From IMG/VR virus record IMGVR_UViG_3300034375_001012, positions 1 to 28,942 of that record: a DNA stretch of 28,942 bases; one strand, given 5' to 3'. This stretch comes from a virus. Below the pieces are notes generated by a model, which saw only the letters and a list, made by a program, of their open reading frames with translations, made no database searches and was not told the origin of the DNA. This document shows positions 13,510-26,069 of this stretch, piece by piece; within the stretch, counting starts at the first letter, position 1; each line of letters opens with the position of its first letter. The position numbers and the translations under genes are program-made.

Positions 13510-14259
13510 ATGGAAAAGAAAATATTTAGTACAACTCAATACGATAACTTTACTTTCTTTGAAGGTAATAGATCAGTAGATCAAAACAGGATCAAACAAT
13601 TAATGGAAAGTATTAAGATTAATGGTTTGATTAATCCGCTAGTGGTATCTCAGAACTTGGAGATTATTGATGGTCAGCATAGATACGCTGCATTAAAAAT
13701 CTTACAGATGCCTATTGACTATCATATTCACAATGTGGATAGAGGTCAGCTAATCTCATTAGTAAGAGATATCAATTCAGTTCAAAAGAATTGGACTAAC
13801 TATGATATTGCTAATGCCTATGCCGTACATTCACCTAATAAGATCCATTACAAAAGATATTTGGATTTAGTTGATCTAGGTATTAATCACTCAGCAGCTT
13901 TAGAAGCCTGTGGTTATTTATCTGTAGGTGATAATGAAAAAGGCTATAGCAAATTCTACAAGAACTTTAAGAATGGCAATCTGGAGATTACCGAACAGGT
14001 ATTCAACAATGTTAAAGGGTTTGTAGCAACTTTAGTTCAATCACCTTTTGAGAAGAAGATTTGGAATAAGGCACACTTCATTAGAGCGTTATTACATCTT
14101 CATAAGTTATATAAGTTAGACATTAAGAAGTTCTTTAGAGCCTACGAGAATAATCCTTATAAGTGGAAAAAAGCATCTACTTATGATGATCATAAAACTT
14201 CTATGGTTAAACTTTATAACTTTAATAATCAAAGACCAATTAAGGTCTTGTTTGAATAG
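13510..14259 (+). CDS. ParB-like nuclease-domain protein
   Basis: A 249-aa protein with an N-terminal ParB/Srx-like domain (residues about 10-80): DQNRIKQLMESIKINGLINP, LVVSQNLEIIDGQHRYAALK. GQHR corresponds to the GHHR-type CTP-binding box. The C-terminal two thirds are helical and basic and not recognised, so it is not a full ParB with centromere-binding domain. Possible roles are DNA binding or nuclease activity, or gene regulation. AGGAGGAACTTTT precedes the ATG. A second, unrelated ParB-like protein is at 18238-18696. Confidence 0.75.
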   Translation: MEKKIFSTTQYDNFTFFEGNRSVDQNRIKQLMESIKINGLINPLVVSQNLEIIDGQHRYAALKILQMPIDYHIHNVDRGQLISLVRDINSVQKNWTNYDIANAYAVHSPNKIHYKRYLDLVDLGINHSAALEACGYLSVGDNEKGYSKFYKNFKNGNLEITEQVFNNVKGFVATLVQSPFEKKIWNKAHFIRALLHLHKLYKLDIKKFFRAYENNPYKWKKASTYDDHKTSMVKLYNFNNQRPIKVLFE

Positions 14260-14806: not shown

Positions 14807-15247
14807 ATGGAAATAAGAACGGAAAAGCTGCTATCCGCACTTGAAGCAGCAAAGAGAGAGTTTAAGCCATTACAGAAAAACGGCAAAAACAATTTCTTTA
14901 AAACTCAAAACGGAGTGCATGAATACAGTACCTTAGTAGATATCAAAAATGCTACAGATGAAGCATTAAATAAACATGATCTATCATTGTACTACACAAT
15001 CACTTTTGAAAATGATCTTCAATTCCTGACTACTAACTTAGTACACACAGGATCAGGTCAGTTCATAACTTCAAGATCAGTCTTAGGTAATCTATCAAAC
15101 AATCCGCAACAAATTGGATCAGCGATTACTTATTACCGCAGATATCACATTCAGGCTATGTTAAATCTGGAAGCTGATTTTGATGATGATGGAAATAAAG
15201 CATCAACCCCAAAGCCTAACAATACACCAATTAAAGGAGGTCTATAA
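14807..15247 (+). CDS. erf: Erf-type single-strand annealing protein
   Basis: A 146-aa recombinase resembling the ERF superfamily: front LLSALEAAKREFKPLQKNGK, middle EYSTLVDIKNATDEALNKHD, and the key segment NNPQQIGSAITYYRRYHIQA followed by ML.LEADFDDDGN. The GSAITY.RRY box is the family hallmark. It anneals complementary single strands in phage recombination, likely with the nuclease at 16086-16859 and the SSB-like protein that overlaps its end. Length is shorter than P22 Erf (about 200 aa), as in many Erf cores. It opens the replication module. Confidence 0.88.
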   Translation: MEIRTEKLLSALEAAKREFKPLQKNGKNNFFKTQNGVHEYSTLVDIKNATDEALNKHDLSLYYTITFENDLQFLTTNLVHTGSGQFITSRSVLGNLSNNPQQIGSAITYYRRYHIQAMLNLEADFDDDGNKASTPKPNNTPIKGGL

Positions 15248-16085: not shown

Positions 16086-16859
16086 ATGATGAATAAAGAA
16101 GGATTTGAACATTGGGATCTATTACCCATGTCATACTCAAAATTAAACTCATGGAGGTCATATCCCTGCCAGTTTATTATTAATAAAATATTTAAGATCA
16201 ACACAGGAACTAATCCTGCCATGTTTACAGGGATTATTGTTGAAGAATTATTGAAAGATTTATTAATGGGAAATGAATCTGAAGATAATACTCAAATGAA
16301 GTTAAGAGATTTTCAACAAACTCTGAAAGATTATCATGATCAGGATGAAGTAGCTAAATACTTAAAATTGATCCCAAAGTATTACGAAAACTGTAGAGCC
16401 TTATTTAATAGATTTGGTAATCAACCCCTGCACTCTTACCAAGAAGAACTAACAGTGGAAATAGAGGGTATTCCCTTTATTGGTTATTCTGATTTTGTCT
16501 GGGATTTAGGCGAGGAAGGGATGTTTATTTTTGATCTTAAGACTAAAGGTAGAATGGCGATCAATCATTCAGATAAGTTGCAGCAGCTAATTTATAAAAA
16601 GGCATTAGAACAGAAATACCAAAAACCAGTTCACTGCAGTTTATTTGTAGTCACACCTACAAAGCATCACTTTGAGGAAATAGAATTTACTGATGAACAT
16701 GAAATAGAGATCAGAAATATTCTTAAAGGCATAGATAGGGTTTTACAATTATGTGATGAGCCTAAAGACTGGGCATATATCTATCAACCTAATGTGGATG
16801 ACTTTATTTGGAATAATCCAAAAATGGTAGAAGCTAGGCGGCAAATATGGGGTATCTAA
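16086..16859 (+). CDS. PD-(D/E)XK nuclease, RecB/Cas4-like exonuclease
   Basis: A 257-aa protein with the order of motifs of the PDDEXK_1 group: YSKLNSWRSYPCQFII in front, TGIIVEELL (likely metal-site Glu in the front helix), GYSDFVWD (D136) and FIFDLKTKG (D150, K152), then LQQLIYKKALEQ as the supporting helix. Such phage exonucleases resect DNA ends and partner with annealing proteins such as the Erf at 14807. The ribosome site is AAGGAGGAAC. Substrate strand and polarity cannot be told from sequence. Two ATGs (16086, 16089) are possible starts. Confidence 0.8.
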   Translation: MMNKEGFEHWDLLPMSYSKLNSWRSYPCQFIINKIFKINTGTNPAMFTGIIVEELLKDLLMGNESEDNTQMKLRDFQQTLKDYHDQDEVAKYLKLIPKYYENCRALFNRFGNQPLHSYQEELTVEIEGIPFIGYSDFVWDLGEEGMFIFDLKTKGRMAINHSDKLQQLIYKKALEQKYQKPVHCSLFVVTPTKHHFEEIEFTDEHEIEIRNILKGIDRVLQLCDEPKDWAYIYQPNVDDFIWNNPKMVEARRQIWGI

Positions 16860-17023
16860 TGGTTAGCAATAGAGGATTTGTACCTAACAAAGAAAGAGTA
16901 GTCATAAGATGTGAAAATTGTTTAAGAAAATTTACTAAATTTATGGCAATAAGATTGTATCAACATAAAGAAATCTATAAATGTATAAGTTGCTATAATT
17001 CAGGAGGTAGTAAAAATGGCTAA
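16859..17023 (+). CDS. Small zinc-ribbon protein, 54 aa
   Basis: An ATG at 16859 overlapping the nuclease stop gives 54 aa with CENC and CISC, two CxxC pairs about 20 residues apart, in a basic background (NKERVVIRCENCLRKFTKFM). It probably binds a zinc ion. It overlaps the initiator gene by 8 bases, and the latter's ribosome site (AGGAGGT) lies in its 3' end. Function unknown; nucleic acid binding is plausible. Confidence 0.6.
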   Translation: MVSNRGFVPNKERVVIRCENCLRKFTKFMAIRLYQHKEIYKCISCYNSGGSKNG

Positions 17024-17861
17024 AATGATATTTATCAATTATTGCCCTGATGATCAATTATCTGGGTGCATGATCCTCAGTTATAAAGCTGAATTAACTT
17101 ATAGAAGGCTACAGGATTTAATTTATACCAATGATGATCTATTATTTGATGATCCTATTATCTGGGAACTAGCAACCAGAGGATTTTGCGAAGATTTATC
17201 AGAGGTCAAATCTGAACTTATCAAAAAAGGGAAAATCAGAATAGAGGATGGAAAGATCAGGAATAAGAGATGTTCTGAGGAAATCCAAGCAGCTAAAGAA
17301 AGACATGATAAATCAAAGAAAGCTGCTACTGCTAGATGGGGTGTTCCAAACAAGTCATTTGGTACACCAAATAGGGATGAAAATACAACACCTAATGCTA
17401 ACGCATCATCTGAGCATATGCCTGAGCATGATCCAAGCATATGCCAACCACTAACCACTAACTACAAACCACTAACTACTAATAATAAACTAAATATATA
17501 TACACAGGAGTTTGATATTTTCTGGCGAAAATATGTTCTTGATGAGAATGACAGAAGATCAACTAAGTATGATAGTTATCAGCAGTGGAAGAAGTTAAAA
17601 GATGAAGATAAAAAATCTTTAGGCGAGAAGTTCCTTACTTACAGAAATCAAAAAGGGGAATATTATAAAGCATTAGAGAGGTTTATTTCAAAGAAAATAT
17701 TTATGGAGATAGTACCTGAGAAGCAGCTTTCTGATCAAGAAATGAAAGATTGGAAATTTAATTCTGATGTAGATATGCGCCGTAAGGGGATGAAACCTTT
17801 ATCTTGGTCAGTAAGTTATATCAGGGAACTTGACGAATATATTGAGAAAAACCCAGTATGA
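17016..17861 (+). CDS. Replication initiation protein, DUF1376-like
   Basis: A 281-aa protein. Residues about 20-100 (ELTYRRLQDLIYTNDDLLFD, then DPIIWELATRGFC, then LSEVKSELIKKGKIRIEDGK) look like the winged-helix DUF1376 domain of phage replication initiators. Residues about 105-165 are a low-complexity linker, encoded by repeats that look like an origin (17413-17500). The C-terminal part (EFDIFWRKYVLDENDRRSTK ...) resembles the domain in helicase-loader or lambda O-like proteins. It would melt the origin and recruit the host replisome. The phage has no polymerase in this window. Confidence 0.72.
   Translation: MAKMIFINYCPDDQLSGCMILSYKAELTYRRLQDLIYTNDDLLFDDPIIWELATRGFCEDLSEVKSELIKKGKIRIEDGKIRNKRCSEEIQAAKERHDKSKKAATARWGVPNKSFGTPNRDENTTPNANASSEHMPEHDPSICQPLTTNYKPLTTNNKLNIYTQEFDIFWRKYVLDENDRRSTKYDSYQQWKKLKDEDKKSLGEKFLTYRNQKGEYYKALERFISKKIFMEIVPEKQLSDQEMKDWKFNSDVDMRRKGMKPLSWSVSYIRELDEYIEKNPV
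17413..17500 (+). repeat. Iteron-like repeats inside initiator gene, putative origin
   Basis: Two copies of AGCATATGCC (17413-17422, 17436-17445) each contain the palindrome GCATATGC, 23 bases apart. Then seven 7-base units follow in tandem from 17446 to 17494: AACCACT, AACCACT, AACTACA, AACCACT, AACTACT, AATAATA, AACTAAA, decaying into AT-only TATATATA (17495-17502). In lambdoid phages, iterons lie within gene O. The mixed palindromes, tandem heptads and AT-rich end are origin-like, though the region also codes for a Pro/Thr-rich linker. Confidence 0.55.
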
Positions 17862-18058: not shown

Positions 18059-18238
18059 ATGAGTAAATCAGATATGCAAAAACCACAGAATTACATCATT
18101 ATAGATAATGAAGATGGCACATATTCCGCTTATGTGAATTATGGTGTATTTGAAAGCAAAGAAGATGCAGAAATAAGTTTACAATATGTTATGGATCTTA
18201 TGGGATATAAATTACAACCCCAAGTGACTTATCACTGA
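18059..18238 (+). CDS. Hypothetical protein, 59 aa
   Basis: The ATG at 18059 gives a 59-aa protein (MSKSDMQKPQNYIIIDNEDG, then TYSAYVNYGVFESKEDAEIS, then LQYVMDLMG) ending in an ATGA overlap with the ParB-like gene. The sequence reads as a beta-hairpin plus helix (the DGTYSAYVNYGVFESKEDA part is like that of small SPOR-like or phage modulators). No ribosome site is clear. Function unknown. Confidence 0.55.
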   Translation: MSKSDMQKPQNYIIIDNEDGTYSAYVNYGVFESKEDAEISLQYVMDLMGYKLQPQVTYH

Positions 18239-18696
18239 TGAATGTTCAATTAAAAGCAATTACGGATATAAAACCTTACGCTAGAAATCCTAGAAAAAAG
18301 AAAAATTTAAATAAAGTTGTAGAAAGCATTAAACAGTTTGGATGGCAGCAACCTATCGTAGTAGATAGAGCAGGAGTGATTGTTGCAGGTCATTCCAGAT
18401 ATGAAGCAGCTAAGATATTAGAATGTAAAGAGATACCAGTGCTGATTGCTGATCTATCCCCTGAAAAAGCAAAAGCCTATAGAATAGCAGATAACAAAAC
18501 AAATGAGTATAGTGAATGGGATTTTTCCTTATTAAACAAAGAATTTACGGACTTGCTAGATATCAATATGGATTTAGAGATCACAGGGTTTGATACTAAA
18601 GAACTTGAAGATTTCTTTACATTTGATAAAGAGGATGATGTAGCCAAGATTAAGACAGAGAAATCCTGCCCAAATTGCGGTACAAAATTAAAATAG
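18238..18696 (+). CDS. ParB-like protein next to terminase, with C-terminal zinc ribbon
   Basis: A 152-aa protein with a ParB/Srx domain: DIKPYARNPRKKKNLNKVVE, QQPIVVDRAGVIVAGHSRYE, AAKILECKEIPVLI, then ADNKTNEYSEWD. The GHSR box corresponds to ParB motif GHHR. In phages this domain is often fused to a DNA methyltransferase. Here the methylase is absent and the protein ends in a CPNC zinc knuckle (one CxxC pair, so perhaps dimeric). It lies just upstream of TerS/TerL, where such proteins are thought to act in packaging. That role is inferred. Confidence 0.78.
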   Translation: MNVQLKAITDIKPYARNPRKKKNLNKVVESIKQFGWQQPIVVDRAGVIVAGHSRYEAAKILECKEIPVLIADLSPEKAKAYRIADNKTNEYSEWDFSLLNKEFTDLLDINMDLEITGFDTKELEDFFTFDKEDDVAKIKTEKSCPNCGTKLK

Positions 18697-24213: not shown

Positions 24214-24245
24214 AGCCATCCTGTTATATACAAAATGGGATGGCT
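24214..24245 (+). promoter_or_regulatory. Extended -10 promoter and start-codon hairpin before the MuF gene
   Basis: TGTTATATA (24222-24230) matches an extended -10 (TGn followed by TATATA). The ATG of the next gene lies nine bases downstream, and no Shine-Dalgarno exists, so a leaderless message is possible. The same stretch is flanked by a perfect inverted repeat AGCCATCC (24214-24221) / GGATGGCT (24238-24245) whose 3' arm covers the ATG (24240). It could hide the start codon in read-through transcripts, or act as an operator. Confidence 0.45.
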
Positions 24246-26069
24246 ACAAAGCAAGAGATATTATCAAAACTAGCTGCTTCTCACGAACAAAGAATTTCCA
24301 AAGTTCTTTTTGATCTTGAAGAAGATATTATTGCTCAATTACAAAGAGCCACAGACGGAGTTCCCCTTACTACTGATTTAGCTATTCAGCTAAGACCAAA
24401 TCTTAAAAGACTAATAGAGCAGAACTATCTTAAAGAAGGCTCTAAGATTATTTCAGAATATGATGAAGTTGTTAAAGGATATATGGACTATATCCGCACT
24501 ACTCCAGTTTCCGCTAAATTTAAAACGCTTACCAAACCTGATCTAGTCTTAATCAATCAATTAAAACAATTATCCTTTAGTGGATTTGAAGATGTAGCCA
24601 ATAGATTTCTTGATACGATTGCTACAGAGATATATTCATCCGCCGTCACTGGTAAACCATTTCCTCAGGTGGTAGAAAACATCAGAGCATCTATTAATGG
24701 TGTCTATAGACGAAGTAATGAGGAAGCAGTCAATAGATTAGTTAGGATTGTAGAGGAGAATAGATATTCAGATGATCCTTTAGCTAAAAAGAAATACTTA
24801 GATGCCAGAAAGATCCTGCATAGCAAATACGCATCCGATATTAGAGGTGAGAATATGCGCAAGTACGCTAATCAGATTGCTCACGATAGTATCATGCAGT
24901 TTGACGGACAATTCACTAAGTACAAAGGTCAAGAAGCAGGAATAGACACATACAAATATACTGGCACAAATATTACGACTACTAGACAATTCTGTAGAGC
25001 CTATCTTAATGAAATAAAAACAGAGGAAGAATGGAGAGAAGTATTTACTGGCAACTGGAGAGGTAAATCAGGATCAGATCCTTTTGTGAATAGAGGTGGT
25101 TATAGATGCCGCCATAGTTTAATCCCTTATGATCCTGCATGGGATGCAGATGAAGAAGTAAAACAAAAAGTAGATGATATAAAACCAAAAACTAAACCAG
25201 TTGGAAACATTCCTCAAAAAAATATTTATTCCCCATTCCCAAATACAAATGGTAATTCAGTTAATAAAATATTAAATGATTTAGATGGTAATGAAGAATC
25301 TACTATAAGAATAAATAATTTTATTAATGCTAGAAATATTGGACTTAATTTCTTACCTAGAGCAACAAGAAATATAAACAATAGAAGGAAAGAATTACCA
25401 AAAGTACAAGAATGGTATAGTGGATATATTAAAGAAAACAAAGATACATTTAAATATGGAAACCAAAATTATCCAATACAATCAGTAGAGTTAGGAAGTT
25501 TAAAAGGAAGAAAAACTTATAATGGATGGGCTACTCCATTGAATAATATGCCAATAGCTTTAGTAGATGAAGCAACAGATTTATCAAAAATAGATATAAA
25601 AAAATTACAAGATTCAATAGCTTTTACATTAGATAGAACAAGCAAAAATCAAGGTAAGTATGTTTCAAAATTAAATATTGTAGGGAAAAGAGAAATCAAA
25701 AATGCAGATTTTTCTTTTTCAGCTAATTTAAATGCACTAAAACTAGATAACGAACAGAAATTTACAACTATGATGCACGAGATTGGGCATCAAGTTCATT
25801 ATTACGCAATTAAAAATGTAGGTACATCAGATAGAGTGACAACAAATTCAGTTGCAGATGCAATAAATTTTATAAGAAACAAATATCCAAATAGCAATAA
25901 TTTTATATTAACAAAATATGGATCATCAAATGCACATGAATTTCATGCAGAATTATTTGCTGCGTATGCAACTAACAGAAAAGCATTAGAAAAATTTAAC
26001 AAAGGATTAGTAGAATATATGGATGACTTAATTGAAAAAGCTACACAAAGTAAGGTGAAAGGACACTAA
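24240..26069 (+). CDS. MuF-like minor head protein fused to a zincin-like metalloprotease domain
   Basis: A 609-aa fusion. Residues 1 to about 305 look like a Mu F / SPP1 gp7-type head morphogenesis protein (GENMRKYANQIAHDSIMQFD, then TRQFCRAYLNE, then the family's NRGGYRCRHSLIP). After a Lys/Pro linker (about 310-325) comes an unrelated, Asn/Lys-rich region. It holds HEIGH (H513, E514, H517), preceded by TTMM, and then NAHEFHAELFAAY (E567 or E571), the layout of a gluzincin-type zinc protease with a Glu third ligand. In other phages, MuF proteins carry C-terminal toxin domains and are injected with DNA. The front and back halves visibly differ in base composition. Expected to enter the host with the genome or act in head maturation. 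Confidence 0.8.
   Translation: MATKQEILSKLAASHEQRISKVLFDLEEDIIAQLQRATDGVPLTTDLAIQLRPNLKRLIEQNYLKEGSKIISEYDEVVKGYMDYIRTTPVSAKFKTLTKPDLVLINQLKQLSFSGFEDVANRFLDTIATEIYSSAVTGKPFPQVVENIRASINGVYRRSNEEAVNRLVRIVEENRYSDDPLAKKKYLDARKILHSKYASDIRGENMRKYANQIAHDSIMQFDGQFTKYKGQEAGIDTYKYTGTNITTTRQFCRAYLNEIKTEEEWREVFTGNWRGKSGSDPFVNRGGYRCRHSLIPYDPAWDADEEVKQKVDDIKPKTKPVGNIPQKNIYSPFPNTNGNSVNKILNDLDGNEESTIRINNFINARNIGLNFLPRATRNINNRRKELPKVQEWYSGYIKENKDTFKYGNQNYPIQSVELGSLKGRKTYNGWATPLNNMPIALVDEATDLSKIDIKKLQDSIAFTLDRTSKNQGKYVSKLNIVGKREIKNADFSFSANLNALKLDNEQKFTTMMHEIGHQVHYYAIKNVGTSDRVTTNSVADAINFIRNKYPNSNNFILTKYGSSNAHEFHAELFAAYATNRKALEKFNKGLVEYMDDLIEKATQSKVKGH

Follow-up and report, generated by a model that had tools for sequence, protein, structure and literature searches.

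A replication origin placed inside the gene of its own initiator is a known kind of arrangement, and the papers cited here describe its closest examples. The origin of phage lambda lies in the middle of gene O, where repeats for the initiator are followed by an A/T-rich tract (PMC7466680). In the rep gene of plasmid pSK41 the Rep boxes are central, and the encoded protein binds them through a winged-helix N-domain, contacts the host primase through its C-domain and has a dispensable linker (PMC5703833). Silent mutations of the A/T region of the repC oriV abolish replication (PMC3155836). Plasmid Rep proteins with a winged helix first bind iterons as duplex and afterwards a single strand of the repeated DUE elements next to them (PMC4081077). 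A contiguous 7-bp period has been described for the parS site of pSM19035, in which each WATCACW repeat takes up one dimer of Omega, which acts in both regulation and partition, and the array is wrapped in a spiral (PMC9499535).

How does the locus described here compare with these systems? The window, by which we mean the whole stretch of 28,942 bases of a virus record that was analysed, carries in the middle of a predicted initiator gene a ladder of 7-base units, preceded by other repeats and followed by an A/T tail. This arrangement resembles lambda ori in lying midway along an initiator gene and, in the window's family, in the order of repeats and then an A/T-rich tract. Lambda, however, has four longer iterons, the excerpt of PMC7466680 mentions no 7-base ladder, and the protein families differ. 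An origin of the pSK41 type (RepA_N) likewise has its repeats in the centre of the gene, and the fold matches of the window's initiator include 4pql, 4pta and 5kbj (Z 6.7-7.5), values that may mean a common fold only, and the two initiators have no demonstrated sequence relationship. The pSK41 origin has four Rep boxes, and no 7-base ladder is reported in the excerpt of PMC5703833. The repABC oriV is similar to the window in that the origin is in the initiator gene and dissimilar in that repC is without iterons. In plasmids of the Rep/DUE kind the origin is outside the Rep gene. The mechanism that we propose for the ladder copies that of plasmid Rep and DUE, the DUE repeats being 13-mers and the ladder units 7-mers (PMC4081077). 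The heptads of the pSM19035 parS differ from the ladder in sequence, protein fold, location and role. No description of the ladder or of the start of replication in DUF1376 phages was found in open PubMed Central papers. We propose that the block is probably a replication origin of two parts, set within the linker region of the initiator gene, a function that we infer from initiation-type neighbours, from matches of related proteins to phrog_678 and from the known origins within initiator genes.

The predicted initiator and its repeat block

All main genes of the window are on the + strand. They encode tail and lysis proteins, an Erf-like single-strand annealing protein (14807-15247, +; phrog_2324, E 1e-31), an exonuclease (16086-16859, +; phrog_69, E 5e-12), the initiator, a ParB-like protein, terminase, portal, scaffold and major head proteins. 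The GC skew of this fragment is one-sided. The small phage fragment has two ParB-like genes, at 13510-14259 and 18238-18696, the second shortly 3' of the initiator gene. Between the portal and scaffold genes, positions 24240-26069 encode a 609-aa protein with Pfam matches below the cut-off (MBG and a metallopeptidase-like domain) and no PHROG match.

The initiator gene (17016-17861, +) encodes a protein of 281 aa of the primosomal-protein type. It matches phrog_9327, 'primosomal protein' (E 3e-14), as do all 40 members of the related-protein set A4, and phrog_678 (replication initiation O-like) is matched by 25 of 40 related proteins over part of their sequence. The Pfam scan of the window protein returned DUF1376 (PF07120) alone, and weakly (E 0.082; 13.7 bits against a gathering cut-off of 30.1), with no RepA_N and no lambda-O type domain; we name the protein DUF1376-like because it matches phrog_9327 while its PF07120 score is below the cut-off. 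In the AlphaFold model, residues 4-110 (17025-17345, +) form a predicted winged-helix N-domain with pLDDT mostly about 90 and the topology helix-helix-helix-hairpin-long helix. Residues 112-159 (17349-17492, +), which hold the DNA block, are a linker predicted to be disordered (pLDDT under 50), and the C-part is modelled as helical. Fold comparison of the N-domain by VIA placed 4pql (Z 7.5), 4pta (6.8), 5kbj (6.7) and DnaD 2vn2 (6.1) at the top, all at Z values below the tool's safe level, so that these matches are not trustworthy alone; three of the four rows are what we take to be plasmid Rep structures of the pSK41/RepA_N kind. Foldseek found no match in the PDB at E <= 0.001. A sequence search of solved structures gave three weak matches to GCN4 fusions (E 0.066-0.54), which were judged to be chance.

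The original prediction had described seven tandem 7-base units, two palindromes 23 bases apart and an AT-only tail in this linker. The seven units are present at 17446-17494 (+), with the core AAC[CT]A. Five are good copies (17446 AACCACT, 17453 AACCACT, 17460 AACTACA, 17467 AACCACT, 17474 AACTACT) and the last two are degenerate (17481 AATAATA, 17488 AACTAAA). TRF reports period 7 with 5.3 copies and also period 21 with 2.1 copies. When lags 4-24 are compared over the whole window, the highest 35-base self-match (27 of 35, at 17443) belongs to lag 7, equalled by its multiple 14; 3 of 5000 synonymous shuffles that kept the protein fixed reach this match. Immediately 5' of the ladder, the upstream block at 17413-17445 (+) contains AGCATATGCC at 17413-17422 and again at 17436-17445, 23 bases from start to start, with a half-match, AGCATGATCC, seen by reading between the copies at 17425-17434; we propose that these are duplex sites specific to the initiator. 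The two palindromes are there too, as GCATATGC at 17414-17421 and 17437-17444, with the same distance of 23 bases between starts. A third copy lies at position 279, so that the window has three where 0.49 are expected, a number reached in 1 of 100 shuffles. A 12-base period in the upstream block of the window alone is not significant, being reached by 4642 of 5000 synonymous shuffles. The tail, a possible unwinding site, spans 17480-17502 (+); the A/T stretch exists, but 'only' went too far, as a C at 17490 separates the A/T runs 17480-17489 and 17491-17502. Longer A/T-only runs occur elsewhere in the window.

Could the block be a DNA-binding site of another sort, used for autoregulation of the initiator or for partition in the manner of parS? 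The Omega arrays of pSM19035 have the same period and 7-10 copies (excerpt of PMC9499535), and the window does contain ParB-like genes. The proteins that these encode, however, match phage ParB-nuclease/methyltransferase families and not Omega, and the fold predicted for the initiator is a winged helix, not a ribbon-helix-helix. Moreover, the core AACCANN of the family differs from the WATCACW consensus, and the ladder lies mid-gene in initiators, not at promoters. We regard a regulatory or partition site as unlikely and retain the embedded origin as the preferred reading.

Codon choice and distribution of the ladder in DUF1376 genes

When the linker was compared among relatives, as had been suggested, the outcome that would have refuted the original prediction, a lack of the repeat in relatives sharing the initiator, did not occur. 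Across 17 sequences of the window's family, the window included, 11 of the 18 testable codons in the array and tail are synonymously invariant, compared with 36 of 168 elsewhere (Fisher p 7e-4), and the A/T tail is largely invariant among the close relatives. Both copies of GCATATGC are kept in 2 of 16 aligned relatives (L129 and L132), near-identical ones being left out, and the palindromes were rejected as the key element.

Family-wide, the core of the ladder is AACCA followed by two free bases (AACCANN). Of 84 non-redundant DUF1376 genes found by their N-domain, 61 have an unbroken run of four or more exact AACCA cores at period 7, against a mean of 0.89 genes and a maximum of 5 in the synonymous-shuffle control. 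For this set 102 loci were read; four, in which the gene was truncated or very short, were dropped, and removal of near-duplicates reduced the remaining 98 to 84. The search profile, A1, covers the N-domain only and hence removes selection for the repeat from the sampling of genes; because A1 was built from ladder-bearing genes, 61 of 84 holds for that subfamily and is too high a share for the entire DUF1376 family. Lag 7 is found in 50% of the 84 genes, whereas none of 116 other ORFs at the same loci shows it. The array starts on average at codon 125 (66 genes), and in the 61 genes the ladder is 67% A/T. By eye, some loci keep period 7 with other cores, namely ACACANN in L246, L249, L250, L255 and L256, AAACANN in L168 and AACTANN in L214, and spacings of 7 and 8 are mixed in L215 and L228.

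Running through three frames, AACCANN should encode N-[HQ]-[KEQ]-P-x-T-x by means of the codons AAC, xxA, CCA, xxA and ACC. Codon choice in the motif N-x-[KEQ]-P(-x-T-x) follows this prediction closely: Asn is AAC in 131 of 134 instances (45% elsewhere in the same genes), Pro is CCA in 129 of 134 (39% elsewhere) and Thr is ACC in 81 of 89 (27% elsewhere), while the codon of the third residue ends in A in 133 of 134 and that of the fifth in 88 of 89. Within the array, then, codon choice serves the DNA sequence and not the protein. It might be argued that the linker matters as protein, as a flexible Asn/Pro/Thr-rich spacer that arose by replication slippage and has no DNA function, and both its predicted disorder and the recurrence of the peptide motif N-H/Q-K/E-P-L-T-T would agree with this. 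Yet slippage by one unit shifts the frame, because 7 bases are not a multiple of a codon, and a spacer of this kind does not account for synonymous codons that are nearly fixed at core positions or for the synonymous invariance in the window's own family. The same core is also found in unrelated initiators, those of phrog_2447, in which the Gln codon is CAA in 31 of 31 cases inside ladders and in 18 of 77 elsewhere. Chance or a protein-only repeat was rejected on codon counts and controls, the codon counts by themselves largely refuting the latter, and we give the spacer explanation very little credence. What stands firmly of the origin-like block that the original prediction placed in the initiator is a DNA-level element, strongly supported by synonymous constraint and by the relatives, in which the ladder core AACCANN carries the signal.

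The element is associated with initiator genes and has a fixed strand. Four cores at period 7 were scanned over 2.9 million viral contigs (IMG/VR). A DUF1376 ORF was on the coding strand in 111 of the 119 loci classified among 120 for AACCANN, in 98 of 120 for ACCAANN (a scan that overlaps the AACCANN loci and is not independent of it) and in 99 of 120 for ACACANN. For the C-to-G control core AAGGANN, 0 of 120 loci had a DUF1376 ORF, and placement on the opposite strand in DUF1376 ORFs was 0 in all four scans. An exact 17-base heptad pattern matched at least 120 stretches of IMG/VR. Among the matches listed, 93 of 120 loci had the pattern in a same-strand ORF of at least 180 aa, and 91 of these 93 ORFs form one blastp component of DUF1376 type with varied C-terminal parts, one member of which (L036) does not look like DUF1376 and probably entered the component through its repeat only. 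The 27 listed loci without such an ORF are mostly intergenic, with another heptad type. Intergenic arrays of CCACTNN / GATAGTGG, which also fit the 17-base pattern, are not in initiator genes; arrays of this other type lie at about 707 in L009, 4649 in L045, 1420 in L053, 2428 in L087 and 3069 in L091.

Not every feature of the window is general. Downstream of the ladder the A/T content of DUF1376 genes is 57.9%, against 56.6% gene-wide, and the A/T tail was rejected as a general element. A PF07120 profile search of 274 gammaproteobacterial genomes found 10 places, with an AACCA ladder in three (L706, L707 and L709) and a variant in one (L711); at L712 and L713 the ORFs chosen reach scores of no more than about 22 bits, so that the search may have overlooked the true gene. 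The ladder is absent from divergent members of DUF1376, E. coli K-12 ydaU (L157, 9320-10177) included. The ydaU linker has three TGTTCAAAC-type elements, two direct and one inverted, and these could mark the location of the Rac oriJ. An active oriJ is confirmed for the Rac prophage in the excerpt of PMC3945230, which gives no position. As ydaU is also without an AACCA ladder, Rac oriJ was not used as support.

Upstream repeats, a second initiator family and neighbouring genes

In 28 of 66 genes, the 100 bases 5' of the ladder match themselves at lag 11 better than do 99% of synonymous shuffles. The same test gives lag 22 in 18 of 66 and lag 23 in 10 of 66, and each of nine other lags in at most 2. 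On reading, the upstream repeats differ in sequence among lineages, and together with the lags this yields a fixed order, in which repeats particular to the lineage and spaced by one helical turn precede the common ladder. Of the claim about palindromes, the presence of repeats before the ladder was borne out and the palindromes themselves proved unconserved; family-wide, the repeats are lineage-specific and about 11 or 22 bases apart.

Two hits of the scans, L408 and L439, belong to phrog_2447, 'replication initiation protein', and not to DUF1376. A search with the N-domain gave nine phrog_2447 loci (L408 is L716 among them), and all nine have 3 to 6 AACCA/AACACA cores at a spacing of 6, 7 or 8, in a corresponding position within the gene. 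Upstream lag-11 matches reach at least 17 of 22 in seven of the nine. A search for phrog_2447 in 185 gammaproteobacterial genomes gave 0. The ladders of L716-L724 are 6-base AACCAA ladders, some of 7 or 8, and GGAATCC-type repeats stand at 11 or 22 bases before several of them. DUF1376 genes are also found in three plasmid records, with AACCA runs of 4, of 6 and, in one case, of irregular spacing (7, 6, 8, 7). The DUF1376 gene at 21372-22262 of L725, on a resistance plasmid that has a repM of its own, has a four-unit ladder and adjoins a gene for an ATP-binding protein. Plasmid pSWBY1 does not decide on origin use, because its own repM is present.

The second family bears on the idea that the ladder is a recombination joint, a shared patch of homology for swapping C-terminal domains behind one N-domain. 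In 66 genes the N-domains do form one blastp component and the C-terminal parts eight (50, 6, 3, 2, 2, 1, 1 and 1 genes). A joint, however, predicts neither the 7-base period nor the strand, neither the upstream 11-base repeats nor a second family with 6-base spacing, and we consider it very improbable as an explanation. Recombination at the ladder could be a by-product of the embedded origin that we favour.

What lies next to these genes? Among 79 downstream ORFs, seven have DnaB_C and five an IstB/DnaA-type ATPase, and most have no recognisable helicase or loader. Two Vibrio phages (L704 and L705) have a DnaB-like helicase directly downstream of the initiator gene; their linkers contain a degenerate AACNA ladder only, with no run of three exact cores. 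Thalassomonas phage BA3 (L703) carries seven perfect AACCANN units at 31759, within the gene at 31330-32163. Its cumulative GC skew has a minimum at 30153 of 37313, 1.6 kb from the array and also near a change of gene direction. In L704 and L705 the minimum is at the start of the record, so that it lies near the array in one of three whole or partial phage records (BA3). That the array supplies primase start sites on the complementary G/T strand instead of an initiator site would suit the strand bias, the short regular spacing and the primase/helicase that adjoins the initiator gene at L726, but fixed spacing beside 11-base repeats fits protein assembly better, and we find the idea scarcely credible.

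Proposed mechanism and implications

We propose the following model for the embedded bipartite origin, in which initiator binding, single-strand binding, unwinding and origin activity are the inferred steps. The winged-helix N-domain would bind a few lineage-specific repeats, 11-12 bases apart, on the 5' side. Initiator protomers, or a recruited factor, might then occupy the adjacent AACCA cores on one strand, one per 7 bases. The occupied ladder would help to open the A/T-rich, nearly G-free ladder itself and, in the window, the A/T tail as well, and the opened DNA may let the helicase load. A broader reading can be offered tentatively, as a possibility that we rate below even chances: the arrangement might be a general phage origin module, in which lineage-specific 11-bp duplex iterons are followed, in fixed order and strand, by a near-universal ladder that is read single-stranded by a helical initiator filament. 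The nearly G-free ladder of such a module would be AACCA, with ACACA, AAACA and AACTA variants, every 6-8 bases, and would be common to two or more families of initiators whose N-domains are unrelated. Its bacterial counterpart would be the DnaA boxes and DnaA-trios.

What would an origin of this kind mean for phage replication? Phages and prophages of many bacteria commonly carry DUF1376 genes, and if the proposal is true, the origin would be readable from the gene sequence in a large phage group. For an initiator, a period of 7 bases would be unusual in its geometry, as it amounts to two thirds of a helical turn. If true, a core common to unrelated initiators would suggest that these share a step of single-strand binding or helicase loading.
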